From: Auricularia sp. M13 | Lineage: Eukaryota > Basidiomycota > Agaricomycetes > Auriculariales > Auriculariaceae | Reading direction: 5' to 3' | Assembly: GCA_037042915.1 (NCBI GenBank) | Contig: CM073204.1 | Span: 434,001-498,000 of the forward strand | DNA length: 64,000 nucleotides | Part shown: positions 2,620 to 64,000 of the stretch, one piece after another | Layout: every line of letters begins with the position of its first letter | Numbering within the stretch: the stretch's first letter is position 1 | Program-made: the position numbers and the translations under genes | The notes under the pieces: model-generated | Told to the model about the DNA's origin: nothing | Databases searched by the model: none | Seen by the model: only the letters and a program-made list of their open reading frames with translations

Positions 2620-3105
2620 CTGTAAAGCTAATAATTATTACCGCGTCACGCGTCACGGAGGACGCACGGCCCGGTAATAAACGCGTTTTGTAGCATGTCA
2701 TGGGCTGCTCAAGGTAATAGGATGTCACAGTGTTGCAAGGACCAATTTCTCATTTACGACCTTCGGGAGCGGCGCGCCTTCAGCGCGCAAGACATATAAT
2801 TACATAAAAAGGATCTCTCACACGGTATAATGCAAATCGGAGTGACTAGCACCTTAGTTATCGATAAATTACCTGGTGAGAGCATTGGGAGGCCTGATAG
2901 GATCCAGAAACCAGACAATCCGGCCCAACATCTTGCCTGCCTGTCTAAATGTGGCACTGCCTGTCCTTTCCTGGTGAGAAATACCCATAAGCTATGCCTT
3001 GTTTCTCCAGACATATGAAGATGGTCACGCGTCACGGGAGGCCCAAGGTAATGTCTCCCCCGTGTCACGGTCCAGAGGGCCCGGTAATAATTATTAGCTT
3101 TACAG
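2620..3105. mobile_element. MITE-like element with 24-bp perfect inverted ends and TA target duplication
   Basis: The 24 bases from 2620 (CTGTAAAGCTAATAATT...) reappear exactly reverse-complemented ending at 3105, and TA dinucleotides flank both ends (2618-2619, 3106-3107). The element is 486 bp with no credible coding capacity. TA duplication plus short perfect inverted ends is the signature of non-autonomous Tc1/mariner-type elements. The interior holds a second partial inversion (GTCACGCGTCACGG near 2645 and again near 3024, and GGCCCGGTAATAA near both ends). It lies 20 bp past the stop of gene A1, so it may supply that gene's 3' end. Confidence 0.72.
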
Positions 3106-3291
3106 TAACGGCGCAGGATTTTGTGGGTTAACACTGTGCCGCATGCTTTGCCCTGCAGGCTACCAAGCCCGCCTGACCTATCTTATTCCATAGCCCTATA
3201 GTATATATGCTTGAAAGGCAATTATATGTAGATCATCATATTTGACCGGGAGCTCGAGACAAAGCTGCTGTGGTATCTGCGGGACTTTCCC

Positions 3292-3387
3292 TCATGAACC
3301 CCGATGACTTACGAAGTCCTCGTCGGGCACGTGGAGGCTGTACGCAAGAATATCGGCTAGCGTCTTGTTTGCAAGCTTGTGCGCCAT
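3292..3387 (-). pseudogene. 5' stub of an A-type F-box gene
   Basis: The minus strand reads MAHKLANKTLADILAYSLHV then PDEDFV, closely matching the first 26 residues of A2 (12351 onward), then loses similarity and stops after 31 codons. It stands head-to-head with gene B1 with 84 bp between the start codons, just as A2 and B2 do (85 bp). I read it as the truncated partner of B1. The break lies near 3310; nothing of the remaining seven exons is visible to its left. Confidence 0.75.
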
Positions 3388-3471
3388 GCTGTACGTGGGC
3401 GGAAAAGACGAAAGCAAGTTGCGGTTTCCGCCGGTGGTGCCGACACGTCTTTTCCTGCCCCGCGGGTACCG
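3388..3471. promoter_or_regulatory. Bidirectional promoter of the stub/B1 pair
   Basis: These 84 bases separate the two divergent ATGs. They are highly similar, with only scattered differences, to the 85 bases at 12266-12350 read on the other strand (shared blocks include CTGTACGTGGGCGG, TTCCGCCGGTGG and GTCTTTTCCTGCCC). Such conservation outside coding sequence fits a shared divergent promoter, or simply a recent duplication. Confidence 0.6.
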
Positions 3472-5899
3472 ATGGCCCATAAGCTCGCGGACGAGACGCT
3501 TTCAAACATCTTTTTCTACCACTTCCACGTCTCGGACGATGACTTTGCTTGCATTACAGAGCGCCAGTCACCGTTTGCTCTTCGACGCCACGGATCGTCT
3601 TCCAGCGTCCTGCTCGTATGCAAGCGGTGGATGCGCGTTGCAACGCCTCTTCTATACGAAACGGTTGTCCTACGTTCTGGCGCTCAAGCCCAATCTCTGG
3701 CATTCGCTCTCAAGTCGACGCCGTCACTGGGGCCTTACATCAGAAAACTTCGCGTCGAAGGCGGATTCGGAGCGGCAGGCGGCAAAATTCTGAAGGCCGC
3801 GTCCAAGATCACCGACATATGGCTTACACTCGACCTCTATGCTCAGGATAAGGCCATCCCGATGTACAAAGCGATGGCAGAACACGTTAATCCCCGCCGC
3901 CTGCTTGTGTATAGTCACATTAGGCCCGTGAACATAAATTCCAATACCGCGTTTGAGACGCTGTGTCGTTGTATTGACAGCTGGACTTCTCTGGTCTGTG
4001 CTCTTTATAGGTCACTTTCGCAGCTCACAACTGACAACTGCTACCCAGCGAGCAGTTCATTGTTCTGCAAAACTACTACTGCACTCGACGCTCTTCCGCG
4101 CAGCGCTATTAGCCGCGAATCGGATTGAGGAGCTTCGGCTGGCTGATTTCTTTGGTACGCACGAGGCTGTAACCTTCCTGCGCGACAGTCGTGCCCTCCG
4201 CATCGAGTTGTGCTTTGCATGCGACGAGTTTCTCGACCGTTTCAGTAAGGATCTCAATCAACTCCATGCTCATGCCCGCAGCAAAATCGTAATAATGCGG
4301 CGAGTGCCTCGGTACGTCGTAGTGCGCGTGCGTGCATGTGCTCCACTAATTGAACCGCAGCGCGCCGGAGGTGGCGACGCCGCCTGCCCCAAGCGCAATA
4401 CCCATCGATCCATCCTATGTTCCTTTACAAGCTACGCCAGCCAACGTCCGAGATCGCATATGGGGACGCGTCCTGAGCTTCGTCGCTGCTTCTGAGGATG
4501 CGACCTCGAGGTCAACAAAGTTGAACTGCCTACTCACCTGCAAGATGTTCAAGGTGCGCCACGACTTCTGTCTGCATCCAGCATTCGCGCTCTGATAACT
4601 GCTGTCAGAATCTTGCGCTGCCGCTATTTTGTCGCAGAGTACAGCTTGCGTCCGACTCCAGCATTATCAGCTTTGCGCGTCTCATGCAAGCACGCGGCGA
4701 TCTGGCACCATGCGTCCGGAGCTTCACCATATCTGCACCGCCAACACCACACCGCACGTTCTTCGTCGGGCAGGACGCGAGCGACGAGTTGATGTCCATT
4801 CTTCCGCTACTGACGGAGCTTGTGGACGTCGACCTGCGCCGTGTACGGCTTACTGGGCTTCCGGAGCACTCTCACAAACTTCAGAACGTCAGCATGTGGA
4901 TCGAAGTCACTGGCCAACACTTCCGTCTTCCCCGGTTCGCCCATCTCACCGCCCTCAACCTCAAGCTGGATCTGAACTCGAGCTTTTCCCACTTGGATGT
5001 GTCGTGTTCCTCGCCTCTGGACACACTACCGCTGCTGCAGACGCTCACTCTTTCCGGATTTCGGTTTGACAGTCTTCTGCGCGGCCTAGCCACACTCGAG
5101 TGAGCCTACCTACATTATATTTAATTGGGAGATGTTGAGCTAACTCAATGCCGGACAGACTGCCTCGTCTTCGCGTTTTCGACATTCAGGAACTATATAA
5201 TTTACATGATATCGATTCACAGACTGACCAATCTGGATTGCGAGCGTTCATGCGTGCCCACGGCGCGAAGCTGCAGCGCCTGGACATGGGAACGCGCAAG
5301 CTGGCAGAAAGCGTCCAACAGTGCCCCAACCTCACCTCGTTGCACATCTTCATTTCCTCCAAGGTGCTTCCTTCGTCTGCCTGTATGTGAACTTGAAGGC
5401 TCACCGTGACTGGCATGTGCCCGGGATAGACCACCATCTGCGAAGCGTTCAAAGCGGTCAAGCTGCGCTTCCGGCATCTCGACACCATCGTGTGTCCCGC
5501 CATACGGTTCGTCTTGCGTCTTGGCTGGCCCGCATGGATTCTCTCTACTGACACGCTTACTCCTGCTGAGTTTTCCTGAATCTCCCTCGATGAGAAGCAA
5601 GCGCACGGCAGAGGATTTCTCCGAGTTTATCGATCTCCTGTGTTCGACTGACCAGTTTCCGAAGCTGAGAACGCTTCAGTTTGCCTCTGAAGGGCTGTGG
5701 CCGACTACAGAGTACGTCCTCCCAGGCCAAGTTGCACTCGAGAAGCTGAAACGGCGTCTCGGGGATCAGACGCGGGATCTCAAAGAGTCCTGCACCGGTA
5801 TGGGCTGAGGCGCTGAAGGCGAAGGGGATCACTATGCTAGATGGCAATGGGCTCCACTGGACGCCCAGACTCAAGATCCAGAAACGGGGGCGGTCGTGA
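3472..5899 (+). CDS. F-box-like/LRR protein, gene B1
   Basis: Eight exons: 3472-3993, 4049-4311, 4361-4553, 4609-5099, 5159-5363, 5430-5506, 5571-5711, 5770-5899; 673 aa. It starts MAHKLADETLSNIFFYHFHV and carries the family motifs LLVCKRWMRVATPLLYETVV and IRKLRVEGGFG. The C-terminus reads APVWAEALKAKGITMLDGNG then LHWTPRLK. Exon number, intron phases and the sizes of exons 6 (77 bp) and 8 (130 bp) equal those of A1, so A and B genes descend from one spliced ancestor. B1 is most similar to B2. Likely an SCF substrate adaptor by family; target unknown. Confidence 0.8.
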
Positions 5900-37766: not shown

Positions 37767-39058
37767 TCAGGCGCTCTGATTACGCACCAAGTATCCAGCA
37801 ATATCACAGTGGCTAGCGCGAAACCTGCTGAAAAGCCGCCTGGTATCAACGGTGATCGTCACTTCGCGTTGAATGTACATGTCAAGCGCGACCTGGGACG
37901 GATGCATAATGACAGTAAGCAAGTCTACGAGATTTTCGGCGTCTATCTTGGCCGCAGTCCAACCTCCGCGCACGCAGACCGATTTGATTTTTGGAAGGAA
38001 TGGCCCGGTACGCGGGGCAACGGCTACCGGCGGGACGTCGACACCGATCGACCTGTTCTCCCACACAATGTTGAGCGTCTTGCAGTTGGGCAGCTCCGGC
38101 ACGATGGGCACGAGGTTCACGAGCCCCCGGTGGATCGTGATTGTGACGACGCGTGATGTGAAGTCAGGCGCGAAAAGCCTCGTGCTCCGCGGCCAATCCG
38201 CCACCGCAGCGCCCGGGTGCTCCTGGAAACCGCGCACGAATGGACCACAGACATAGGAAAGGTTGACAACCTCCTTCTCCATGTGAAGGATTTTCAGATT
38301 CAGGTGGAGAGGTTTCCTGTGAGATATGTAGTCCATTACCGTGCTGATTAGCTCACGGCAGGGCTGCTTGCATTGGATGCAACGGATCCCAGCAATATCG
38401 GGCACAACTTGTAGCACGCTGGCGAGATATGTGGGCGGCATCTGCAGAAACAGCGAGTCGATTGGCGGTTGGGAAAATTGCTCGTCGTTGGACGATTGCG
38501 CTTGTTCAATGCCGCCGAAGGACGGCACTATCAACGCCAGATATAATGCACAAGGGAAATGGACGAGAAGGCGCAGCGAAATCGAACGCGGTGCTCGCAC
38601 AACGATTGACGGATGGGTGACATTGATAAATGCTGGAATCGCCGTCCTGGGTATTGGAACGTCTTCGAGACGAACCCGTAGCAGCCGAGGACAGGATCCA
38701 GCAAATAAATCCCCGGGGAAGGCGGGGGGGAGGAGGATCGTCGCAGTAGCACAGCCAAAAGGTCTGCAGTTTTGGTGCAGGTTGCTGAAAGATCTCCGTT
38801 ATATGAGAAGCAACGTCTGTGCGCATGGCGATGCGCAGAGATTCCATGCGAGATAGATGTTGCGCGAGTAGAGGGAGGACAACCGTGCAGATACGCGCTT
38901 GGTGCGAGTCCTCCGTTTTGTCGAGTTCGAGAGTGATGTCGAGGGCATGCCCGTTGCAGGATAGACGGGCCTGGAAGAAAGCCAACGCAGAGTCTGAGAG
39001 CGCCGCCAACCAGACAAAGCGCCAGAATTGTGGCTGGGAGCGTGCAAAGACGCGCCAT
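37767..39058 (-). pseudogene. 3' part of an F-box gene split by a transposon
   Basis: Minus strand from 39058 reads RVFARSQPQFWRFVWLAALS, then LDITLELDKTEDSHQARI, leucine-rich segments and a stop at 37767. The F-box itself is 11 kb away at 50046-50157. A second defect is a run of seven G on the plus strand (38724-38730). One base fewer would join LQTFWLCYCDDPPPP to GDLFAGSCPRLLRVRLEDVP, so this is a frameshift or a homopolymer miscall. Together with the 5' part and one copy of the duplicated 8 bp, the former gene would encode 464 aa. Confidence 0.8.
39051..39058. repeat. Target-site duplication, left copy
   Basis: CGCGCCAT, repeated exactly at 50046-50053 at the other end of the transposon. 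Confidence 0.85.
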
Positions 39059-39087
39059 AGGCCCCCGGCTTATAGGATGTGAGGTCT

Positions 39088-39165
39088 CATCCCAAGACCG
39101 GCCCATGTGGGGGGGGGGGGGGGTTTGAAATGGCCAAGCAGCTTGACTTCTGGGGGGGTTTGGAT
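39088..39165 (+). repeat. G-run direct repeat, left copy
   Basis: CCCATGTGGGG...GTTTG, then AAGCAGCTTGACTTCTGGGG, then GGGTTTGGATG. It is matched in the same orientation near 49938-50020 inside the right end, with a third GGGGGGGTTTGG at about 49903. Confidence 0.5.
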
Positions 39166-39217
39166 GGAGAACGTCGGCGCTTTCGAAAACGGCGTTCGCC
39201 GAACGGCGAACGGCGAA

Positions 39218-39520
39218 CACCTTAAGGTGAACAGGTAAAACCGTTAAGGTGAACAAGTAAAACCGTTAAGGTGCGTCATTAAAACCGTTAAGGCGAGGCT
39301 ATAAATCGGTTAAGGCAGTAGAGTAACATGGTTAAGGTAGACATATAGTGCACTTAAGGTGAATGTATGTAGCCCTTAAGGTGAGAACAATGGGAGCTTA
39401 AGGTACAGATATACAGCCCCTAAAGTGAGGAATTGAAGCCCTTGAGGTGGGTCCCAGGGAACATTAAAGTGGATGTGAGCAGCACTGGAGGTGGATGTGA
39501 GCAGCACTGAAGGTGGACAC
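39218..39520 (+). repeat. Subterminal array of TTAAGGTG-like motif, left
   Basis: About 14 copies of a (C/G)TTAAGGTG-like motif spaced roughly 20-24 bp, degrading inward (CTTAAGGTG, GTTAAGGCG, CTAAAGTG, CTGGAGGTG). Spacing near two helix turns and presence at both ends suggest transposase-binding sites (inference). Confidence 0.65.
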
Positions 39521-40036
39521 ACTACACCTTGAACACTGAACAGCTGGGAAAGACTACGACAATTAAATCAGGAATAGAGAGGAGCCACGGAATAAAAGGG
39601 TGTGTGGGTGGGTGGACTATACCCCACACATGAGAGAATAGATATAGAGGTGTAGATGGGGAGGGAAAGGGATCTCAAGTGTGTGTGTTGTCACGGCAGA
39701 GCGCTCGTCACTCGCCGAGACCGACACCCAAGAGAGGAGAGAGGGACAAGGAAGAACGGACAAGCGGTACAATTGACCAGACCAAACCTAGGGTACACGC
39801 ATCTACACCCCACAACCTATATACCCATCCCCCAAGGGCCGCTGATCCGGCCTAGGGTGATCCCGGAGCTAAGGGACACTCCTCTCATCACCTCCCAGGG
39901 CGCCAACTCCCCGCAAGACCTCCGGTCGAGCATGGTCCGAGGCGGGGCTAAGGTGCCAAGATATACCATACACACCGAGGACACGGGCCGAGGAGGAGGG
40001 CGTCACACGGGTGTTATGCCCGTGCCCCGGTCCGCG

Positions 40037-40276
40037 TGTTGGCACTGCCATCCGGGAGTATCCCGGAGTCATAGCGGACTTCGGACTTGACCAGTCTATC
40101 TCCGTTTTGAACTGTCTCATCTCACCAAGCGTCTCCACCAGAGTCTTGGTATTATTCAGCAGCCTGTACCTTGCACGTGACCTATTCCCGTAGGGTATAA
40201 AAGCCCTGCGGAGTTTACAAAATAAATCCTCAGGTTGTCTCCGCTCTTCTCCGTTCTCAGACAGAGCATAGCCACA
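40037..40276 (+). repeat. 5' LTR of the Gypsy element
   Basis: 240 bp; contains GGGTATAAAAG (likely TATA box) near 40194 and AATAAA near 40221. Matches 46873-47112 throughout as read. Confidence 0.9.
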
Positions 40277-40431
40277 CTTGATCAAGTGAGGTATCTCGGT
40301 CGTTGCTACCACGACCGACGGACAGCTTCATCGCCGCTAGCAAAGGTACGCTAGACGGCGCCGACGACGACCACGATTGATTCAACCTCACTCAGAACCA
40401 AACAAACTTCCGAATTCGGTAATCCGCCGAG

Positions 40432-43400
40432 ATGGGCGACGATTACCAGCAGACGCAGCAACGGCTGCAACAGGAGATCGATGCCCTTCGGGCAACTCTT
40501 GAGGCTCAGCTCGCCGCCAGCCGTCAAGACCTCGCCAGTGTGCACGACTTCGTAGTGCAGACGGCAAATCAGGTTGCCGCGCAACCGGCACATTCGGGAC
40601 CGCGGCCGGCTTTGGTGCGGCCAAACATTGCGTCCTTCGACGGACGCCTTCAAGCCAATGCTCACCTTTGGCTTGCGCAGACCGAGGACGCCCTCGCCGG
40701 CGCTGACATCCCTCGCGACAAATGGCCTTCGCAGGTCGTCGGCATGCTCAGCGGTGAGGCTCTTGCCTGGTACATGAAGCTTCGTGCTAACCATGGCAAC
40801 CAGCCGCCGACTTGGGATGCGTTCAAAACGGAAGTGCTCTCGCACTTCACGACGACGCTGCGCCACGAGGAGCTCCGAGTGCAGCTCAAACAGGTGCGCT
40901 ACCAACCCGGCAATGTTCTTGGCTATATTGCCAAGTTCCGCACGATTGCTGACCAGTTGCCGGACACAGAGATGACCGTGTCCGACAAACGCGCAGAGTT
41001 CCTCTCGCGTCTGTCGCTTGAGGAGCAGATGGAGGTTCGTAAGGCGGACCCAACGTCGATGGAGTCCGCTTACACACGCCTGCGTCAGTACGACCAGGCC
41101 AAACGTCTGTCGCAGCAGCGCCGCGTACCAGTCGCGCCGCCGCCCCCGTCGCGTTCGGGTAAGCAGCCATTCAAACCGCACCGCCCGAACCGTACTAATC
41201 AATTCGGGTTTGCTGCGCCCGCTGCTGCTGCGTCGTCCAACCCGTTTGCAACAGACACGCCGATGCAGGTCGACGTGTTTCAGATGAAACCGACGACGAG
41301 CAATGGCGGACGTAAGCCGTCCGCGCGCGCGCCCAACCCTGACGCGAACGTACGTTGCTTTAATTGCAACCTGCTTGGGCATCGCGCTAATCGTTGCTCA
41401 AAGCCGCGCAAGCAGCGCGCGTTCAACGCGGGATCGTCGACCAACAATAGGTTTTCGCCGCGCTCCTCAGGTCCGTCTAACCTCGCGCTCAACGTTGTCG
41501 AGGGTCCTGACAGCTGGAGCGTAGCCGATGACCTCGTTGATGCGTTCTCGAAGCTCCACCTCAACGTGTTTCAGTTGACAGAGGTATGTGCGTGCGATAC
41601 GCGCGTCGCGCAACAGCCTGCTTATTGCACGCCGCAGCCGCAGCCGGTGTACGCGGACAGGATTGTCCTGTCGCCGCAGCCAATGTATCCCGTGCCGCCG
41701 GCTCCTGCGACCGCGCCGACGTCGACGACGCTCGAGAGACCGGCTGAACCCCTGCCGCGTTTATCACCGACGTCGCCCAACCACCGCGCCTGCTCTCCGT
41801 GCATCCCCACGCCTGAGACGGAGCAGCCGGAATTGGACTGCCCGGCCATCATGCGCAATGAGCTCCATGTGCTCGCGCTGCGCGGGCGATACTACGGCCT
41901 TGCCATTACGTTCCGCGATGACGCTCGCGAGAACATCGCCAGTCGCGCGATCCTCGACGAACTTGAACACCTTGGACTCACTCTCTTTGACCGTCCATTC
42001 GAGATGAGCCCCTGCGGCAAGGAGCTCGTCATCGTGCGCTTGCCGATTGGCCACTACTCGCTGCCGGCGCAGTTCATCGTCCACGAGGGACGTTTCAAGG
42101 GACCTTATCAAATGCGCCTGGGCGCCACGTGGGTCCGCGCAATGCGAGGATGCGACCTTGGCAACGACGGCACATCATTTGCCGTTGATGGGGCCCCCGA
42201 GCCCGTTAAATTCAGGCGTTTTCCCGAACACTGCATCGTTCACACCTCTGGCGCGTCCTTCTTCCTCGATGCGCCGCCAGCTCCTCCGCCCCCCGGTACC
42301 GTTAACCCGCAGGATGTCAACACGCCTCCTGCCGCGGACGGTGGACCTGAACATGCCGACGTGCAGCTGGCCGACCTCAACCTCAACGTTGCCGAGCTCG
42401 CACCGCCCGTTGTCGTGTACAACACTCCAAACCCGTTTGGCCCGGCACCGCTCTCGCCGCTGCTGAACACCATCACGAGCGACGAGTACCTCATTGTCTT
42501 TGACACTGAGGGTGCCTACGTTGGGCTAGCTGACGCTGTCTCCGCGCCGCAAATGGTTGTTAACAACGCATGTGAACTGTCCGACGACGATATCGTCGCC
42601 ACGTCGCCCAGTTACTCCAGAGCCTCGCCACCGTCCTTGCTGGAGGCCTCTGACTCGACCGACGAGGAGATCAGCGACCGCTCTTGGACACCACCAATGC
42701 CGTCCGAAGCGCCAACCGAGTCGGACCAACTCGCTGACGACGACAACGACGACGCGGAATGGGAGCTCGACATGTCGCTTGCGCACAAGAACCTGTACTC
42801 GCCGGTCCCTGCTGGCGACGGCGAAGTCGCGTACCGTTCGGTGCGCTTTCTGCTCAACATGGACGAGTCGCAGCCTGACGAAGTCAAGCAGGCTGCGCAC
42901 GGCGTTTTCATGGTGCTCGAAGACCACGACGACACGCAGATTGGTGTGTTCGGCACCACGAGCAAGCGCCCTCGCTCTTCGACGCCCGACGATACCCTCG
43001 AGACCCTCTCGAAGCGCGTCCGCTTCGAGGGGCTGCGTCTCTGCGTCCACGAGGTGGCGCACGACGAGAATCGCCTCATCGTGCACCTTGGCACCGCTGG
43101 CGAAGTTCCCGTCAAGATTCTCTTCGACACCGGCGCGAAGCTCAACTTCGTCACCCTTCGCGCCGCGCGCCGCATGACCGCCGAGTTCTCGCATCTGCAG
43201 AACCCGCGCGGCATATACGGCGTTGGCGACCTCACCACCAACTGCTTGATGGTGTTCCGAATCCAGCTTGCTGGTTACCAAGGCACTGTCATGGCGTATG
43301 TCGTCGATCTCGACGGCGAACGCGACTACGATTTGATTCTCGGCACCGACTGGATCAAGGCGCATCATGGCAACTACGACTGGACCAACGACGAATTCAA

Positions 43401-46400
43401 GTTCCAGGACGAGCGCGACGCGTCTCGGCGTTTCTCGCTGCCGTGCCTGGACGCTGCCGTGTCGCCTTCGACCTCTCGCTCCCCGACGCCTCGCGCGACT
43501 GCCGCTACGGCTGTCGGTGAGTACGACTTGCCCGTGCTGAACCGCCCGCTTATCCCACGCAAGCGTCCGCTTAGGGAGTTGGGTTTTAGCGCAGGCGATG
43601 ATGCGCTGCACGTAATGGCCGTGCAGACTGAGCCTAACGACGCCAAGGATTCGCTTTCAACTTCACGTACAAAGCTTTCTTTCGGTTCGACATCTTCCTC
43701 CCTGATTTCACCTTCGACAACGACTGCTACTTCATTCGCACCCGTGTCCGTTTCCGCTTCCGCTCCTGACTCGACTTCGACAATGCCTGGCTCGACACCG
43801 AAGCGCAACAAGTCGTCCTTCGGTGCGCGACTCAAGGCTCGGTTCCGTTCGATGTTTCCGTCTCTCTTCCGCGATAAGGTGAAGTTCACCGAGCAGCGCG
43901 CCTGGCAACACACGATTGACACAGGCGACGCAGCTCCGATCCGTTCACGCGGCCGCCCGCTCTCCCCGCCAGAGCACGATGCTGTCCAGAAGTTCGTCGA
44001 CGACGGGCTAAAGGACGGCATCATCGAACCCTCCACCTCTCCTTGGTCGTCGCCCCTCTTACTCGTCCGCAAAAAGGATGGTGAGCTGCGCATTTGCGTT
44101 GATTACCGCAAGCTCAACGCCGCGACCAAGAAGAACAGCTATCCGATTCCGTTTGTGTCTGACTGCTACCAGCGGCTCGCCGGCGCTCAATTATTCACCC
44201 TGTTTGATCTCAAGTCTGGGTACTGGCAAGTACCCATTGCGCCGCGCGACCGCCCGAAGACTGCATTTACTTGCAGGCAAGGGCATTATCAGTTCCGTGT
44301 TATGCCCTTCGGCTTATGCAACGCCCCAGCCACCTTCCAGAACATGATGAACGATATTCTCCGAGAGTATATTGACCGCTTTGTACTAGTATACTTGGAC
44401 GACATCATCGTCTACTCACAAGACGAAGACTCACACGAAAGGCACGTCGAACTCGTTCTTACTCGTCTCGCTGAGCAGGACCTGATTCTCTCTGAGAAGA
44501 AGTGTCGCTGGGCTCAGCCCGAGATGGAGTACCTCGGCCACATCGTCGATGGCAACGGCACTCGCGTCAACCCCGAGAAGGTCGCCGCCATCGTCTCGTG
44601 GCCGCCGCCGGACAACATTACGCAGGTACGCGGGTTTCTTAACCTCGCGGGTTATTACCGACGCTTCATCGCGAAGTTCGCGAGGATCGCGTCGCCGATG
44701 TACGAACTACTCCAAGGATCGCCGAAGAAGGGTTCGGCCATTCGATGGACCGACCGCTGCCAGAAGGCGTTCGACGCTCTCAAAGCAGCTCTCACGTGCG
44801 CTCCGCTCCTAGCGCACCCCGACACCGGGTCGATCTTCGTTATCGACACCGACGCATCCGGCCATTGTATTGGCGCTGTCTTACAGCAGCTGCCCAAGGC
44901 CCTTTTGGAGGGGAAGGAGGCGAGTTCGCTCGACCTCAAGACTTTCAAATTCGCTGACTCCGCGCTGCACCCAATAGCATACGAGTCGCGCCGCATGACC
45001 CCCACCGAGACTCGCTACTCCGCGCAGGAGCGCGAGATGCTCGCCGTCGTCTACGCGCTACAAAAATGGCGCCAGTATATTGAAGGTTCGCCCATACTCG
45101 TGCGTTCAGACCACGAGTCGCTCAAGTACTTCCATACGCAGAAGGACCTTGGGCGCCGTCTTACTCGTTTCGCCGACGATATCGCGCACTTCAACGTCAC
45201 GATTATCTATCGGCCGGGCAAACATCAACTCGCGGCCGATGCTCTCTCGCGCCGCGACGGACACCCGGAAGTCCCGGACTCTGAAACGTTCGCGCCGCTC
45301 TTCGCGAACGTCATGGAAGTTGCTGACGATGACTCAGCCAGCAACGCAGACGACGACGACAGCGCCAAGCTTGGCGCCTCCCTCACAGCAGCCTTTGCGA
45401 CGCTGCGCCGCTGGGAGCAGGATCTTGTCGAGGGCCGACCGTTGGACCGCCCCGATTTCTCTATACGCGATGGCCGTCTCCATCGTCGCATGGGAGGTAA
45501 ATACCTCATCGTGCCCACCACGCTCGCCGAAGCCGAGGCGCTAACACACAACCTTCACGTAGATCTGGGGCACTTTGCTGCGCCCACTGTCAACCGCGCG
45601 CTCCGCGACCGTGCATGGTTCCCGGACAGGAGCAAGATAGTCGCCGACGTTCTCAAGCGCTGCGACCGCTGTCAATTCGCTCGCCGTGAGAACTCGCCCA
45701 CGCAGCCTCTCCACCCGCTGCCACGCCCGCCTGCCTTCGAGCGTTGGGCATTCGACTTCGTCGGTCCGCTACCACGCACGAAGCTCGGCAACGAGTACCT
45801 ACTTACTGCGATGGACCACGGCACGAACTGGGTCTACGCGGACCCACTGCCGCGCCGCTGCGCCGAGGCTGTAGTTACCATGCTGCGCAAGATCATCAGC
45901 GAGCATGGCAAACCGCTCGCCGTCCTGACGGACAATGGCGAGGAGTTCACCTCGTACGTGCTCCAAAATTTCTTGCGACGCCAGAACATCCAGCATATTC
46001 ACACGTCGCCATACCATCCGCAGACCAACGGCCGACTCGAGAAGTTCAACGATGTGCTTGTCCTTATCCTTGCACGATTCCTCTCGCCGACCAGCCAGGA
46101 CGCTTGGGACCAGTACTTGCCCGATGCGCTCCTCGCCTACCGCGCACATCATTCCAACTCGCTCGGTACCTCGCCGTTCTATATGCTCTACGGTTGTGAG
46201 CCACGTCTACCACACGACACGGTCTATGGCACCATCGCGCGCCCGCCGACCAATGCTGAAGTTCAAGAACTCCATCGGCTGCGCTACGAGCATGTCAAGG
46301 ACCTCGAGCGTTTCCGCGCCGAAGCTAACGCTCGCGCACTCCGTCGACTTGAAGCCGAGGCTCTACGCCGCGACGATTCTTACCACGAACGCGGCTTCGC

Positions 46401-46701
46401 CATCGGCGATCTCGTCAAGCGCAAGTCTGAGCGCCCGTCGAAGTTGCACCCGCACTGGGATGGCCCCTTCATCATCCACGATGTCAGCGACAAGAATACC
46501 TATCAGCTCGCGACACGCACTGGTTACATCCTCAAGCACCTCTACAATGGTGAGCGACTCTCTCGCTACTACCCGTCCGACACGACCAAGGACTTATGGT
46601 ACGCGTCGGCAGACCTTCAGCGCCGCTCCGCTGAGGCTGCTGCAAAACGCACGCACGATGCGCGCCGCGTTCTGCGCGAAGCCCCTGCTCCGCAGGATTG
46701 A
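40432..46701 (+). CDS. Gag-Pol polyprotein of the Gypsy element
   Basis: One 2,089-aa frame. In order: a Gag region with a CCHC knuckle (CFNCNLLGHRANRC, about residue 307), a long proline/acid-rich spacer, an aspartic protease (ILFDTGAKLNFV, about 895), reverse transcriptase (YLDDIIVYS, about 1321) and RNase H (DTDASGHCIGAV, about 1470). An integrase follows with an H/H/C/C finger (HVDLGHF...CDRCQF), catalytic-core motifs (FDFVGPLP, LTDNGEEF, NGRLEKF) and a C-terminal HWDGPF block. RT-RNaseH-integrase order places it in Ty3/Gypsy. No chromodomain is visible. Gag and Pol share one frame, so no recoding is needed. It looks whole. Confidence 0.92.
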   Translation: MGDDYQQTQQRLQQEIDALRATLEAQLAASRQDLASVHDFVVQTANQVAAQPAHSGPRPALVRPNIASFDGRLQANAHLWLAQTEDALAGADIPRDKWPSQVVGMLSGEALAWYMKLRANHGNQPPTWDAFKTEVLSHFTTTLRHEELRVQLKQVRYQPGNVLGYIAKFRTIADQLPDTEMTVSDKRAEFLSRLSLEEQMEVRKADPTSMESAYTRLRQYDQAKRLSQQRRVPVAPPPPSRSGKQPFKPHRPNRTNQFGFAAPAAAASSNPFATDTPMQVDVFQMKPTTSNGGRKPSARAPNPDANVRCFNCNLLGHRANRCSKPRKQRAFNAGSSTNNRFSPRSSGPSNLALNVVEGPDSWSVADDLVDAFSKLHLNVFQLTEVCACDTRVAQQPAYCTPQPQPVYADRIVLSPQPMYPVPPAPATAPTSTTLERPAEPLPRLSPTSPNHRACSPCIPTPETEQPELDCPAIMRNELHVLALRGRYYGLAITFRDDARENIASRAILDELEHLGLTLFDRPFEMSPCGKELVIVRLPIGHYSLPAQFIVHEGRFKGPYQMRLGATWVRAMRGCDLGNDGTSFAVDGAPEPVKFRRFPEHCIVHTSGASFFLDAPPAPPPPGTVNPQDVNTPPAADGGPEHADVQLADLNLNVAELAPPVVVYNTPNPFGPAPLSPLLNTITSDEYLIVFDTEGAYVGLADAVSAPQMVVNNACELSDDDIVATSPSYSRASPPSLLEASDSTDEEISDRSWTPPMPSEAPTESDQLADDDNDDAEWELDMSLAHKNLYSPVPAGDGEVAYRSVRFLLNMDESQPDEVKQAAHGVFMVLEDHDDTQIGVFGTTSKRPRSSTPDDTLETLSKRVRFEGLRLCVHEVAHDENRLIVHLGTAGEVPVKILFDTGAKLNFVTLRAARRMTAEFSHLQNPRGIYGVGDLTTNCLMVFRIQLAGYQGTVMAYVVDLDGERDYDLILGTDWIKAHHGNYDWTNDEFKFQDERDASRRFSLPCLDAAVSPSTSRSPTPRATAATAVGEYDLPVLNRPLIPRKRPLRELGFSAGDDALHVMAVQTEPNDAKDSLSTSRTKLSFGSTSSSLISPSTTTATSFAPVSVSASAPDSTSTMPGSTPKRNKSSFGARLKARFRSMFPSLFRDKVKFTEQRAWQHTIDTGDAAPIRSRGRPLSPPEHDAVQKFVDDGLKDGIIEPSTSPWSSPLLLVRKKDGELRICVDYRKLNAATKKNSYPIPFVSDCYQRLAGAQLFTLFDLKSGYWQVPIAPRDRPKTAFTCRQGHYQFRVMPFGLCNAPATFQNMMNDILREYIDRFVLVYLDDIIVYSQDEDSHERHVELVLTRLAEQDLILSEKKCRWAQPEMEYLGHIVDGNGTRVNPEKVAAIVSWPPPDNITQVRGFLNLAGYYRRFIAKFARIASPMYELLQGSPKKGSAIRWTDRCQKAFDALKAALTCAPLLAHPDTGSIFVIDTDASGHCIGAVLQQLPKALLEGKEASSLDLKTFKFADSALHPIAYESRRMTPTETRYSAQEREMLAVVYALQKWRQYIEGSPILVRSDHESLKYFHTQKDLGRRLTRFADDIAHFNVTIIYRPGKHQLAADALSRRDGHPEVPDSETFAPLFANVMEVADDDSASNADDDDSAKLGASLTAAFATLRRWEQDLVEGRPLDRPDFSIRDGRLHRRMGGKYLIVPTTLAEAEALTHNLHVDLGHFAAPTVNRALRDRAWFPDRSKIVADVLKRCDRCQFARRENSPTQPLHPLPRPPAFERWAFDFVGPLPRTKLGNEYLLTAMDHGTNWVYADPLPRRCAEAVVTMLRKIISEHGKPLAVLTDNGEEFTSYVLQNFLRRQNIQHIHTSPYHPQTNGRLEKFNDVLVLILARFLSPTSQDAWDQYLPDALLAYRAHHSNSLGTSPFYMLYGCEPRLPHDTVYGTIARPPTNAEVQELHRLRYEHVKDLERFRAEANARALRRLEAEALRRDDSYHERGFAIGDLVKRKSERPSKLHPHWDGPFIIHDVSDKNTYQLATRTGYILKHLYNGERLSRYYPSDTTKDLWYASADLQRRSAEAAAKRTHDARRVLREAPAPQD

Positions 46702-46872
46702 CTTGTATTTTTTTTACTTTCTGTTTATTGCCCCCTGCCATGACCTCTGTAGTACTAACTTCTATTCCCCTACTCTGTATCGATAAAATCCATGTATCCT
46801 TACCCCATCCTTTCCGCTTACTCTCGCTCTGCTCGCAGCAATTGCAGGAGCAATTGGCTGACGAGGGGGTGA

Positions 46873-47112
46873 TGTTGGCACTGCCATCCGGGAGTATCCC
46901 GGAGTCATAGCGGACTTCGGACTTGACCAGTCTATCTCCGTTTTGAACTGTCTCATCTCACCAAGCGTCTCCACCAGAGTCTTGGTATTATTCAGCAGCC
47001 TGTACCTTGCACGTGACCTATTCCCGTAGGGTATAAAAGCCCTGCGGAGTTTACAAAATAAATCCTCAGGTTGTCTCCGCTCTTCTCCGTTCTCAGACAG
47101 AGCATAGCCACA
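46873..47112 (+). repeat. 3' LTR of the Gypsy element
   Basis: 240 bp, same as 40037-40276 as far as I can read. Confidence 0.9.
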
Positions 47113-49496
47113 CGCGGACCCCACGTGCTCTCGGCATCACTCGGCGTCATTCTACGTCACTCGGCCAACTCGGTCAACTCGGTCAAGCTCCCGAATACCC
47201 GGCTTATCTCCCCTCGTGTTCATATGCTCGGGATATGTTCTCCTCATCGTCCTCTACCTCTAGACCTCTCCCTCACTTCTCTAGCTTCTCTCCTTACTCG
47301 CATACATCCACCTAACTCGCCTTGTCCCTACTGTATCGATAGTGTTCATATCCGGTTCGCTCCACTCGTCTTAGTCATTCGCCTCTCGTCATTCGTCCGA
47401 TCCCCCGATACCTTACCCACTCGCTCTTACTCATCCTATCGGCCGATGACGACGATCTCTATTGATCTGAGGCCCCCTCTCCTTCGTCTCTAGGATACAC
47501 TCCGATTACATCGGATCACCTCCCCAGGTATAAAAGACCCTCGACTTTGTATCTAGCTCCCCAGTTACGAAATCGACATAGTCGTGCCCCTCGCACACTC
47601 TATCTCCCTCTCTCTCGACTTCGCCTCTGGGTTCTTCCCTCGCCCGGCTTACTCGTCTGAGTCCTCTGTTGCTCGTGGTCCCTTCGGTCGTGCTACTCGA
47701 CGTAGCCGGTGTGCTCAATAACGCACCGAAGGCTCTAGTTGTTCGTTCGAGTGTTCTCTGCGCCCGGACATTCGACTATCCTTGCAACCAAACCCCCAAG
47801 GCACAGCAGGCTTAACAACGGGCGCATAGGGATGACGTCGAGCTGCTGCGAGCCAAAGCTGAGAGTCCGAGGATGTAGCCAAGCTTGTACCAGGCGAAGG
47901 TAGCCTCGCCACTATCCGTCCGAGAGATAGCGCGCCAGTGGGAAGTCCAATAGAGGCGTTCCCGAGCCCCCGGGGCTGCACAGGGTGTCCAGCCAAGTCC
48001 GTCCGAGGTCCGAAGACGGTCCTAGAGTCTGTCCCGAGCTTCAGAGCGCCCGTACCCGACGCATACAGCGAGGTGAGAGCAGCCGAACCATGGTCCGAGG
48101 GTAGGAAACCTCCACCGAGCCGAATTGGGGTATGCGCTGAGGTCGTCTCACCCCATAGACCGATAGAGAGCGACACGTAGATCATATCCCGAGCCGTTCA
48201 GCCCGAGGTCTGCAACCCTGGCCGAGTCTCAGTCCGAGGGTAAACAGTGCGCCGACTGTATGCAGCAGCGACCGAACGCTCGGCGAAGCGGCATAAAACC
48301 CGCGGACAAACAGACAGAGCTTGCGGAGACCGTGAAGACTGCAACAGACGCGGCCACAGGATGCCTGGGTCGAATGGGGCTGAGCCAGGACGGACCTGAT
48401 GACGATTGGGACTGAACCCCTGGATTTGCAGGAAGGAGTCTACTTGGTCTTACGCTGGCATGGACCCTCGCTTCGGTCACAAGTCCAAGAAAGCTATTTA
48501 TATTTGCACATGCGCCCGTTGTGACAAGGAAACTACATACAAGACGACCGATCCGAACCTCTAATCTATGTCCATTGCCTCCTCCACCTTGTCGTCGTCG
48601 TCGTCCTCCTCCTCCTCCTCCTCTGGACCTGACTCAGCAGAGACTCAGGTGGCGCTGATGCACGTGAGGAGCCGAGGACGCCGCCCCAGGCGTGGCCAAC
48701 AACTGAGATGATCGCACCGCGGTTCCAGCTGCAAAACAAGTGCCCCAACGCATCGCTGAGCGCAGAGGAACTGGAGCAGACGGCAGTGCCGTTGGCGCTG
48801 CACCCCCAGCTACCAAAGGCAGCCCACACCACTGCGAACTGTCCCACGAACTGTGGGTGCAGGGCGGGCATCGCAGGGGCTGACTACGCTGGGTGTCTCG
48901 ATGGGAAGCGCCGGCATGCTCCCCTTTGCCGCCCTGGATTGCGACGCATGGAACGACTCAATGACGATGATGGTGTTGAGAATGTTCCATTACAACTGGA
49001 GAGCAACTCTGTCCAAAGTTTCTGGCATTCCAGAACTTACTGCTCTACTTGAGCAAGTGTGACCCCCCTTGACAGGCAGTATGTTGGCAAGAGAGATGTC
49101 CAAAGACTTGGATATGTCGGCTGAGTGGCAACAATGAGCCAAGTTGAACATTGAACTCTGGCATGTCAAGAGCAAGGCCCAGTAAGAAGCCCATAAAGTT
49201 ATCGGGTCAAGTGTTTGAAGGTTGTATTCAGGCATCCCTTCAGGTTAGCAACCAAAACCCTGAAGATATTCCAGTAAGGCCCTGAAGGCATTGTGCTCTC
49301 AGTGTTCAGGTACTTGTCAGAACACATGAAGTCAGACGGGACAGGATGTTCAGGTGAGATTTACATGCCGTTAATGCCATTTGTGGGTGAACTATAGGTC
49401 GGTATTATGACCAACTCAACTTGACTACGCTAGAATCTGAAGGCAGTAGATACAATCAATGCAGGTGGTTCCCCATGCACGTTAAGTGCTACAGTG
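47113..49496. other. Right interior of the DNA transposon, non-coding as far as seen
   Basis: Continues the transposon interior interrupted at 40036. It holds CT-rich stretches with TATAAAAG near 47520, a GTC/CTC microsatellite at about 48587-48621, and open frames without recognisable domains (47715-48185 minus, 48708-49052 plus). The corresponding left interior is 39521-40036. Confidence 0.4.
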
Positions 49497-49624
49497 CACC
49501 ACCTTCAGGCGCTCACATCCTGCACCTTAACCGTCGGAATGCACCACCTTAACCGTCGAGTCATAACACCTCAAGTCGTTCAGCTTCACCCCCTTAAGGT
49601 GTTCAGGTGTACACCTTAAGGTGT
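49497..49624 (-). repeat. Subterminal array of TTAAGGTG-like motif, right
   Basis: About six copies of CACCTTAA-type motif (the complement of the left array), spaced near 20-25 bp, followed by the palindromic GTTCGCCG block. Confidence 0.6.
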
Positions 49625-50045
49625 TCGCCGTTCGCCGTTTGGCGAACAGCGGTTTCGAGAACGCGGAGAATTACTTTGGATGAGACCTCGGAACTTGCCG
49701 GCACATTTCCGTCATCACCGAGCGCTCCCACGGTGTCAAATCCGGTCTAAGCCAAGTTAATATCCAATATTATCATGTGTATTAGCTACAAAATTAAGCT
49801 AAGAAGCCTTATTTGATGATGTAAGAATCATTCCATGAGTCAGCATATGTACCAGATGTGGTATATCTGGTCCCAGAACAGTCGGCACACCAGGTCGTGG
49901 TGGGGGGGTTTGGCTGAGACATGATGTCCACACGTGGTCCCATGTGGGGGGGGGGGGGGGGGGTTTGGATGCAAGGTTCAGCCTTCAAGGAGCTCATTTG
50001 TGGGGGGGTTTGGATGAGAGCCCTATCGGGATAAGCCGGGGGCCT

Positions 50046-50053
50046 CGCGCCAT
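50046..50053. repeat. Target-site duplication, right copy
   Basis: CGCGCCAT, same as 39051-39058. Confidence 0.85.
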
Positions 50054-50157
50054 GCTGACGAAACATGCGACGCGCGAACGAGGCAATTGATGTCGAGGAA
50101 ATTCAGTATCATGCAGAGGAGCTCCACAGGAAGAAGCGAGAGGCCGTGCGCGTTCAT
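50046..50157 (-). pseudogene. 5' part (F-box) of the split F-box gene
   Basis: From ATG 50157 the minus strand reads MNAHGLSLLPVELLCMILNF then LDINCLVRASHVSSAWR, a canonical F-box, and ends in the duplicated ATGGCGCG at 50046. Beyond it the frame enters the transposon. The second copy of the 8 bp at 39051-39058 continues in the same frame with VFARSQPQFW. Confidence 0.82.
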
Positions 50158-62734: not shown

Positions 62735-64000
62735 ATGCCCCGCTTCTCAGCGCTCCTCACCATCGTTTTCCTCTTCTCTACTCTCCTTCTCGCTGCACAC
62801 GGACACCTCGGCAACGGCCACGCCGGGAAGGCACTGCACCACCGCGGCCCGACGGCCGTGACGAGCGCGGCGCAGGTGCTGCGCAGCCGCCAGCTCACGC
62901 GCGAGGAGCTCGTGCGCCGCACAAAACTCGCCGAGGAGAAACGTACCCAGACTTGCCCCGCGTACGTCGCCCCCCTCTCCTCCCCCGTCTTCGCGCCGCG
63001 GACTGACCGCTTCCGTCGACAGTGCCCCCCTTCCCAGCCAAAAGTGCAGCTGCCCGTACGTCCTTACATCTTCATCACTCGGAACAGAGTGTCTGACGGC
63101 GCCATCTGCAGCAACCTGACGTTCTGCTCCGGCCTCTGCTACGACTTGAGCAACACCAACTCGCACTGCGGCTCGTGCACCACCGCTTGTGCTTCCGGCA
63201 AGACTTGCTGCGGTTCGTCTTCCTCTCTGCATCGCTCCCCTTCCGCGCGCTGACGGCTAGTGACTTGAACAGGCGGCTCGTGCAAGAGCCTGCAGACAGA
63301 CCCGAGCAACTGCGGCGCGTGCGAGCGCAGCTGCCCGTCCGGAAAGATTTGCTGTGGCGGCGGGTGCATCGACGCCGCCAGCGACTGCGACAACTGCGGC
63401 GCGTGTGGCAACAAGTGCACAGGTGGCAAGAGCTGCTGTGGCGGCCAGTGCAAGGGCTCGTCTGACTTCTCGAGCGACAATGATAACTGCGGATCGTGCG
63501 TCCTTCTTCATCGTGGTTCTCGAACCTTTGCGCTAACGTGGCCCCGTCGTCCCTCTAGGTGCGGTAACAAGTGCGGCGCGGGCAAGACGTGCTGCGGCGG
63601 ACAGTGCAAGTCGAGCTCGCTCTTCCAGTCGGACTCGAACAACTGCGGCTCGTACGTCTTGTTTCTTCTCGCCGTCTTCTCTTCGCGTCGCTCACTTCTG
63701 TCCTTGTAGGTGCGGCAACAAGTGCGGCCTCGGCAAGTCGTGCTGCGGCGGCCAGTGCAAGTCCAGCTCGGATTTCGCGAGCGACTCGAATAACTGCGGC
63801 GCGTGCGGTACCAAGTGCCCCAACGGCCAGTCGTGCTGCGGCGGCAAGTGCAAGTCGTCCTCCGCCTTCGACAGCGACTGCGACAACTGCGGCTCGTGCG
63901 GCAACAAGTGCACGGGAGGCAAGAGCTGCTGTGGCGGACAGTGCAAGGGCTCGTCCGACTTCTCGAGCGACAACAATAATTGCGGCTCGTGAGTTCTCAT
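62735..64000 (+). CDS. STIG1-like cysteine-repeat secreted protein (partial, runs off right edge)
   Basis: ATG 62735; signal peptide (MPRFSALLTIVFLFSTLLLA AHG). After a basic pro-like stretch come repeated units of the type NCG.CG.KC..GK.CCGG.CKSSS..F.SD. At least six units are present before the window ends. Exons: 62735-63212, 63273-63495, 63559-63651, 63710-63988, then a donor (gtgagt) at 63989. The last three introns all fall after the same NCGS position in phase 2, so repeat units and exons were duplicated together. An in-frame 54-60-bp segment near 62962-63020 could be one more intron. The repeats resemble the STIG1/cysteine-rich secreted families; likely wall-associated, function unknown. 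Confidence 0.72.

Follow-up and report, generated by a model that had tools for sequence, protein, structure and literature searches.

A five-layer stack of transposable elements inside an F-box gene of Auricularia sp. M13

Results

The interrupted F-box gene

We analyzed a 64-kb window of the Auricularia sp. M13 genome (assembly GCA_037042915.1, contig CM073204.1, positions 434,001 to 498,000), in which an F-box gene on the minus strand is split by transposable elements. The 5' part of the gene (50046–50157) runs from the start codon to the insertion and includes one copy of an 8-bp duplication (50046–50053). The 3' part (37767–39058) includes the other copy (39051–39058). The duplication, CGCGCCAT, was exact on both flanks. 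Just inside it lies the 15-bp sequence AGGCCCCCGGCTTAT, which occurred once per strand in the window: at 39059–39073 on the plus strand and at 50031–50045 on the minus strand. The distance from inverted end to inverted end was 10,987 bp. A sequence-only reading of the locus had claimed that a DNA transposon struck an F-box gene at a site known to the base, and our analysis bore this out, as the perfect 15-bp inverted ends and the exact duplication were both present.

Joining the two flanks gave ...SSAWR|VFARSQPQFWRFVW... in a single minus-strand frame, and the residues after SSAWR read VFARSQPQFW... The joined reading matched the Pfam families F-box and F-box-like, the latter at 37.1 bits over profile positions 2–44 of 47, compared to 32.8 bits (positions 2–32) for the part before the insertion alone. 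The reported restoration of the frame therefore held across the join, but it did not extend beyond about 38.7 kb, where a C-rich run in the 3' half changes the frame. This second lesion is either decay or a sequencing error. The 3' half had also been described as a leucine-rich repeat half, a description that we could not retain: a Pfam search of 37767–38600 gave no match with E of 1 or less, and no leucine-rich repeat was found. A homologue search with the joined protein scored 7,997 candidates and gave none with E of 1e-3 or less; the candidates were limited by shared words, and the result does not amount to absence. A distant F-box gene in the same genome (C7:3540850-3541926, an example of several) showed 32% identity over query residues 8–371, with no stop through the matching region. 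The genome's F-box family is large: 91 scored matching stretches, of 329 candidates, matched the joined protein, many of them on contig C7.

We compared the window, which lies on contig C12, to the whole genome (52.1 Mb, 14 contigs). A search with the joined protein revealed a paralogue on contig C9 (C9:401160-402108) in two blocks, 91% and 87% identical. At the DNA level, this paralogue was 94.8% identical to the window gene at aligned bases (1049/1106), with 27 gap positions. The C9 paralogue lacks the insert and holds the 5' and 3' parts as continuous sequence; its alignment was gapless across the join, where 106 bp were identical (37 on one side, 69 on the other). This insert-free copy, by matching the join exactly, is strong evidence that the window is not misjoined here and that its two halves belong together, the two doubts that the sequence-only reading had itself raised. 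The C9 paralogue is itself broken, with stops in both blocks.

Further along the contig (C9:402,105-434,182; loci L078, L079 and L080), this paralogue is also split by two interruptions of its own, of about 15.4 kb and 16.6 kb. The first gap is flanked by the 9-bp duplication GAATGGCCG, which is the size for Mutator-like elements.

Five layers between the inverted ends

The 10,987-bp insert is a stack of five layers, which we named A to E, and not one element. Unoccupied counterparts support layers A, B, D and E, and layer C is unproven.

The outermost layer, element A, is a non-autonomous element of the P-superfamily type. Its left part (39059–39166) runs from the inverted end at 39059–39073 to one copy of TTTGGATG (39159–39166), and its right part (49675–50045) runs from the second copy (49675–49682) to the inverted end at 50031–50045. 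A's own DNA amounts to ~471 bp. Two copies elsewhere, L015 (491 bp) and L016 (482 bp), have the ends and interior of A without the inner DNA. At aligned bases, L015 shared 96.7% and L016 97.3% with A's 471 bp, with gaps at about 50 positions.

Element A was opened at TTTGGATG by element B, which left an exact 8-bp duplication. B consists of a left arm (39167–39688) and a right part (48347–49674), and its inverted ends are imperfect (76 nt, 82%). A second B copy, L070, was matched end to end, at 98.5% over 1,328 bp on the right and 94.0% over 536 bp on the left. Short CTTAAGGTG-like motifs are concentrated in B, which held 18 of the 20 matches in the window (up to one mismatch). Eight of these lie in the left arm, on the plus strand and on one 22-bp grid; seven lie in the right arm, on the other strand, spaced 22–23 bp apart. 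The arrays span 39221–39507 and 49478–49620, and the motifs might be transposase-binding sites. Within the right part, 48429–48957 was about 73% like an internal part of the long terminal repeat (LTR) family to which layer C belongs. In the left arm, about 115–130 bp of the stretch 39530–39662 matched some 35 places in the genome at about 76–83%, several of them as pairs about 12 kb apart; this stretch probably represents a piece of a different LTR family.

Inside B lies LTR C (39689–48346, plus strand, own DNA 847 bp), in two parts at 39689–40011 and 47818–48346. Its family has complete two-LTR copies such as L075, which is flanked by a 5-bp duplication. Inside C lies the solo LTR D (40012–47817, plus strand, own DNA 726 bp), with a first part that starts with TGTTATG (40012–40036) and a second part at 47113–47817. 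The 5-bp duplication of D, ACGGG, was found at 40007–40011 and at 47818–47822, the latter being the first bases of C's second part. In the genome, 40 of 132 candidates were scored matches to D at 98–100% (D itself included). The LTR in L070 carries a single ACGGG and thus represents an unoccupied D site.

The innermost layer, E, is a complete Ty3-type LTR retrotransposon inside D (40037–47112, plus strand). Its LTRs (40037–40276 and 46873–47112) were identical over 240 bp, and it is flanked by the 4-bp duplication CGCG, the second copy of which (47113–47116) opens D's second part. The open frame (40432–46701) encodes 2089 amino acids in which Pfam identified gag, protease, reverse transcriptase, RNase H and integrase in that order, as is characteristic of the Ty3 type. 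The D copy L082 provides the unoccupied E site. The identical LTRs bound the age of E only loosely.

These results bear on whether a single 11-kb DNA transposon, perhaps with retrotransposon cargo, entered the gene as a unit, as had been claimed. The outer ends and the duplication are indeed perfect around the whole 10,987 bp. However, L015 and L016 share the interior of A without the rest, the B, D and E junctions each have their own target duplication, and every complete A copy that we fetched was 416–773 bp long, except for one (L009, see below) with a different interior. We rejected the 11-kb unit, which we consider quite improbable, since copies of A, B and D are found elsewhere that lack the elements nested in them here. 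The element that struck the gene was about 471 bp long, and the remainder consists of the nested layers B, C, D and E. A caveat is that some of the inner layers may already have been present in A at the time of its insertion into the gene.

An assembly join or collapsed repeats might also have made the arrangement. The locus is repeat-dense, and a sequencing error in the homopolymer-like run could account for the frame change. Against this, four nested units end at exact target duplications, which misjoins do not produce, and each has an independent unoccupied counterpart; we therefore regard an artefact as extremely improbable.

Certain observations in layers B and C count against the nested series as we drew it. 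Layer C has no flanking duplication in the window, and the B copy of L070 is not bordered by a clean 8-bp duplication. L070 contains a C-family LTR (2822–3978) at the corresponding position of B, in the opposite orientation and with 305 extra bases. The C LTRs of the window and of L070 were about 90% alike, compared to 98.5% for the adjacent B sequence. Our guess is that a rearrangement between inverted LTRs lies behind the difference.

The A family in the genome

Exact copies of the 15-mer AGGCCCCCGGCTTAT numbered 33 in the genome (17 forward, 16 reverse), whereas the reversed-pattern control gave 0. We fetched 18 loci around these copies and added the window, for a sample of 19 sequences that covered all 33. 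Both ends were exact in 14 of the 19 sequences, and all 14 had an exact 8-bp flanking duplication. These duplications were read by eye from the flanks, and that of L009 was also found in a blind search. The count leaves out L014, L018, L022, L024 and L025, in which one end was altered or not found. Compared by length and by alignment, the 14 complete copies fell into four classes: 416–448 bp (n = 5), 471–491 bp (n = 3, including A), 749–773 bp (n = 5) and 6,196 bp (n = 1, L009). The closest pairs in the family were 98.8–98.9% alike.

A subterminal motif, ATCCAAA-N(1-9)-CCACA, was found 4 times in L009, 3–4 times in each of the 416–448-bp forms and 1–2 times in each of the 471–491-bp forms. It was found 0 times in the five 749–773-bp forms and 0 times in 52.9 kb elsewhere in the window. 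The motif may be a transposase-binding site.

A long family member with a predicted Ulp1-transposase

L009 (C2:3835335-3841530) is a 6,196-bp copy of the A family with an interior different from that of the short forms. One of its open frames encodes a Ulp1 peptidase domain (PF02902, E 2.2e-8). The frames after the Ulp1 frame matched no Pfam family above its cut-off, and an NCBIfam search gave nothing above cut-off. We read L009 as one protein with six predicted introns, the fusion and the start codon likewise being predictions. Many annotated relatives have the Ulp1 part and the transposase part in one protein.

Searching with the L009 protein found 7 relatives and searching with their alignment found 93, for 97 distinct proteins in all. 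Both searches scored about 8,000 candidates sharing most words, and the range of relatives is accordingly not exhaustive. We take the named hosts of these relatives to be Agaricomycetes, and the closest annotated relative of the L009 protein, at 51%, was from Auricularia subglabra. Relatives bearing a source's name were labelled as hypothetical, unnamed, uncharacterized or Ulp1/ubiquitin-like protease proteins. The M13 genome has 12 further matching stretches (27–52% identity). We infer that the transposase for A came, in trans, from L009 or one of its close relatives. The Ulp1 domain of L009 would be fused to the transposase and active as a SUMO protease.

Superfamily of element A

Alignment of the relatives revealed the residues D, D, [C/D](2)H and E at 71/71, 70/71, 68/69 (with H at 69/69) and 65/66, counting the rows with a letter at each position among 72. 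L009 carries the same residues. The D-D-[C/D](2)H-E string is given as a signature of the P superfamily (PMC8230255). The transposase core of the relatives was also predicted to have a P-type fold. A first model from 7 sequences was weak (predicted local distance difference test score 53.5), with the P element already as first match. The predicted core resembles that of the Drosophila P element (PDB 6p5a, 6pe2; PMC7776569) in having a helical insertion between beta-5 and the E helix.

At E up to 1, neither the L009 exons nor 30 relatives matched any THAP family, and for this reason we did not class the A family with the canonical animal P elements. We filed it in the P superfamily by its catalytic core. 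A search for the P-like RNase H family PF21787 (N-terminal) was uninformative, because it had no match here nor in 14 control genomes.

Several results sit less comfortably with a P-type transposase acting on A. The fold was modelled on the relative P0055 and not on L009. Among PDB sequences, the profiles A1 and A2 reached no P element chain, only Ulp1/SENP-type peptidases being listed. The P-type helix-turn-helix family PF12017 was found at E up to 1 in 4 of 30 members (26 missed; best 1e-4) and in none of the 7 A1 sequences, and in P0059 its score of 22.9 bits was just under the cut-off of 23. The ends of A and L009 were alike only over about 37 bp and differed beyond. Lastly, a blind search found 8-bp duplications with inverted ends at 0/7 other related-transposase loci, although these stretches may be too short or too decayed.

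The same stack could have formed with A as a hAT or KDZ element. The 8-bp duplications also fit hAT and Zisupton (PMC12730594), Hermes (hAT) was the third Foldseek match (E 1.2e-4), and 149 stretches of the whole genome matched the KDZ family PF18758, nearly all over its cut-off. Yet the 14 copies that were exact at both ends included no hAT or KDZ element bounded by AGGCCCCCGGCTTAT, and PF18758 had no match at E up to 1 in the L009 exons or 30 relatives, a Pfam result by which we ruled out KDZ. Overall, we judged a hAT or KDZ identity improbable. Plavaka was also ruled out, by the 8-bp duplications and the AGGCC..GGCCT ends of A, as these elements have 2–3-bp duplications and TGT..ACA or CATCA..TGATG ends (PMC12730594). 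We conclude that the A family quite probably belongs to a P-superfamily lineage with a joined Ulp1 domain.

Separately, a 93-bp TGC/TGT-rich unit is repeated three times, head to tail, at 63710–63991, the right edge of the window.

Discussion

Our results suggest that very probably the F-box gene was split by A, a ~471-bp element moved by P-superfamily machinery, and that B, C, D and E accumulated later. A P-superfamily transposase made elsewhere in the genome would have moved A, which would have been pasted into the F-box coding sequence by an 8-bp staggered cut, ending the gene. The dead locus would then have received B into A, with the LTR sequence C coming to lie in B. An element in C would have been reduced to the solo LTR D, and the complete Ty3-type E would have entered D last.

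The family of A resembles the Drosophila P element in its 8-bp duplications, internally deleted non-autonomous copies and subterminal repeats (PMC7776569). It differs in its shorter inverted ends (15 bp, compared to 31 bp), in that no THAP was found, in a predicted N-terminal Ulp1 domain and in a much longer protein (PMC7776569). Zebrafish and vertebrate THAP9 elements share with it short inverted ends (13 bp in zebrafish), 8-bp duplications and non-autonomous copies (PMC7776569, PMC8230255), as well as the D-D-[C/D](2)H-E string (PMC8230255). These elements have a THAP domain, whereas in the A family none was found and Ulp1 is present (PMC7776569, PMC8230255). P elements in Dikarya were reported in 2011 from Puccinia and Melampsora (PMC3164196). 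These rust elements, P-1_PSt and P-1_MLP, are likewise P-superfamily elements of Dikarya with 8-bp duplications and both autonomous and non-autonomous forms, but they come from Pucciniomycetes, and the likeness is one of description and not of sequence (PMC3164196). A Ulp1 protease joined to a DDE transposase also has precedent in Ginger1 and Mutator, where a role in transposition was suggested (PMC2836005). Those transposases belong to other superfamilies, and the Ulp1 domain of Ginger1 is C-terminal rather than N-terminal as here (PMC2836005).

We found no report of a Ulp1-fused P lineage in Agaricomycetes in the open-licence PMC literature, and Repbase may hold such elements. The Ulp1 part may act on silencing or repair proteins. 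A more tentative proposal, which we hold to be possible though somewhat doubtful as a whole, is that A is a miniature of an unrecognised Agaricomycete P lineage whose own SUMO protease would act where transposition takes place and remove SUMO from proteins of silencing or repair, and in which another zinc domain would replace THAP in end recognition.

The nesting of transposons as such is ordinary. Nested LTR retrotransposons and solo LTRs are familiar from fungal and plant genomes, where elements lie inside elements and the nesting gives their order, and the stack in our window does not differ from them in kind. It is, however, a clean case in which target duplications give the insertion order and a single genome supplies unoccupied counterparts of four layers out of five. 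Fly transgenesis became possible through P elements, whose use of GTP and THAP-based end recognition are still puzzling. A branch from mushroom-forming fungi in which no THAP is detected and the transposase is predicted to carry its own SUMO protease is a natural comparison for P elements.

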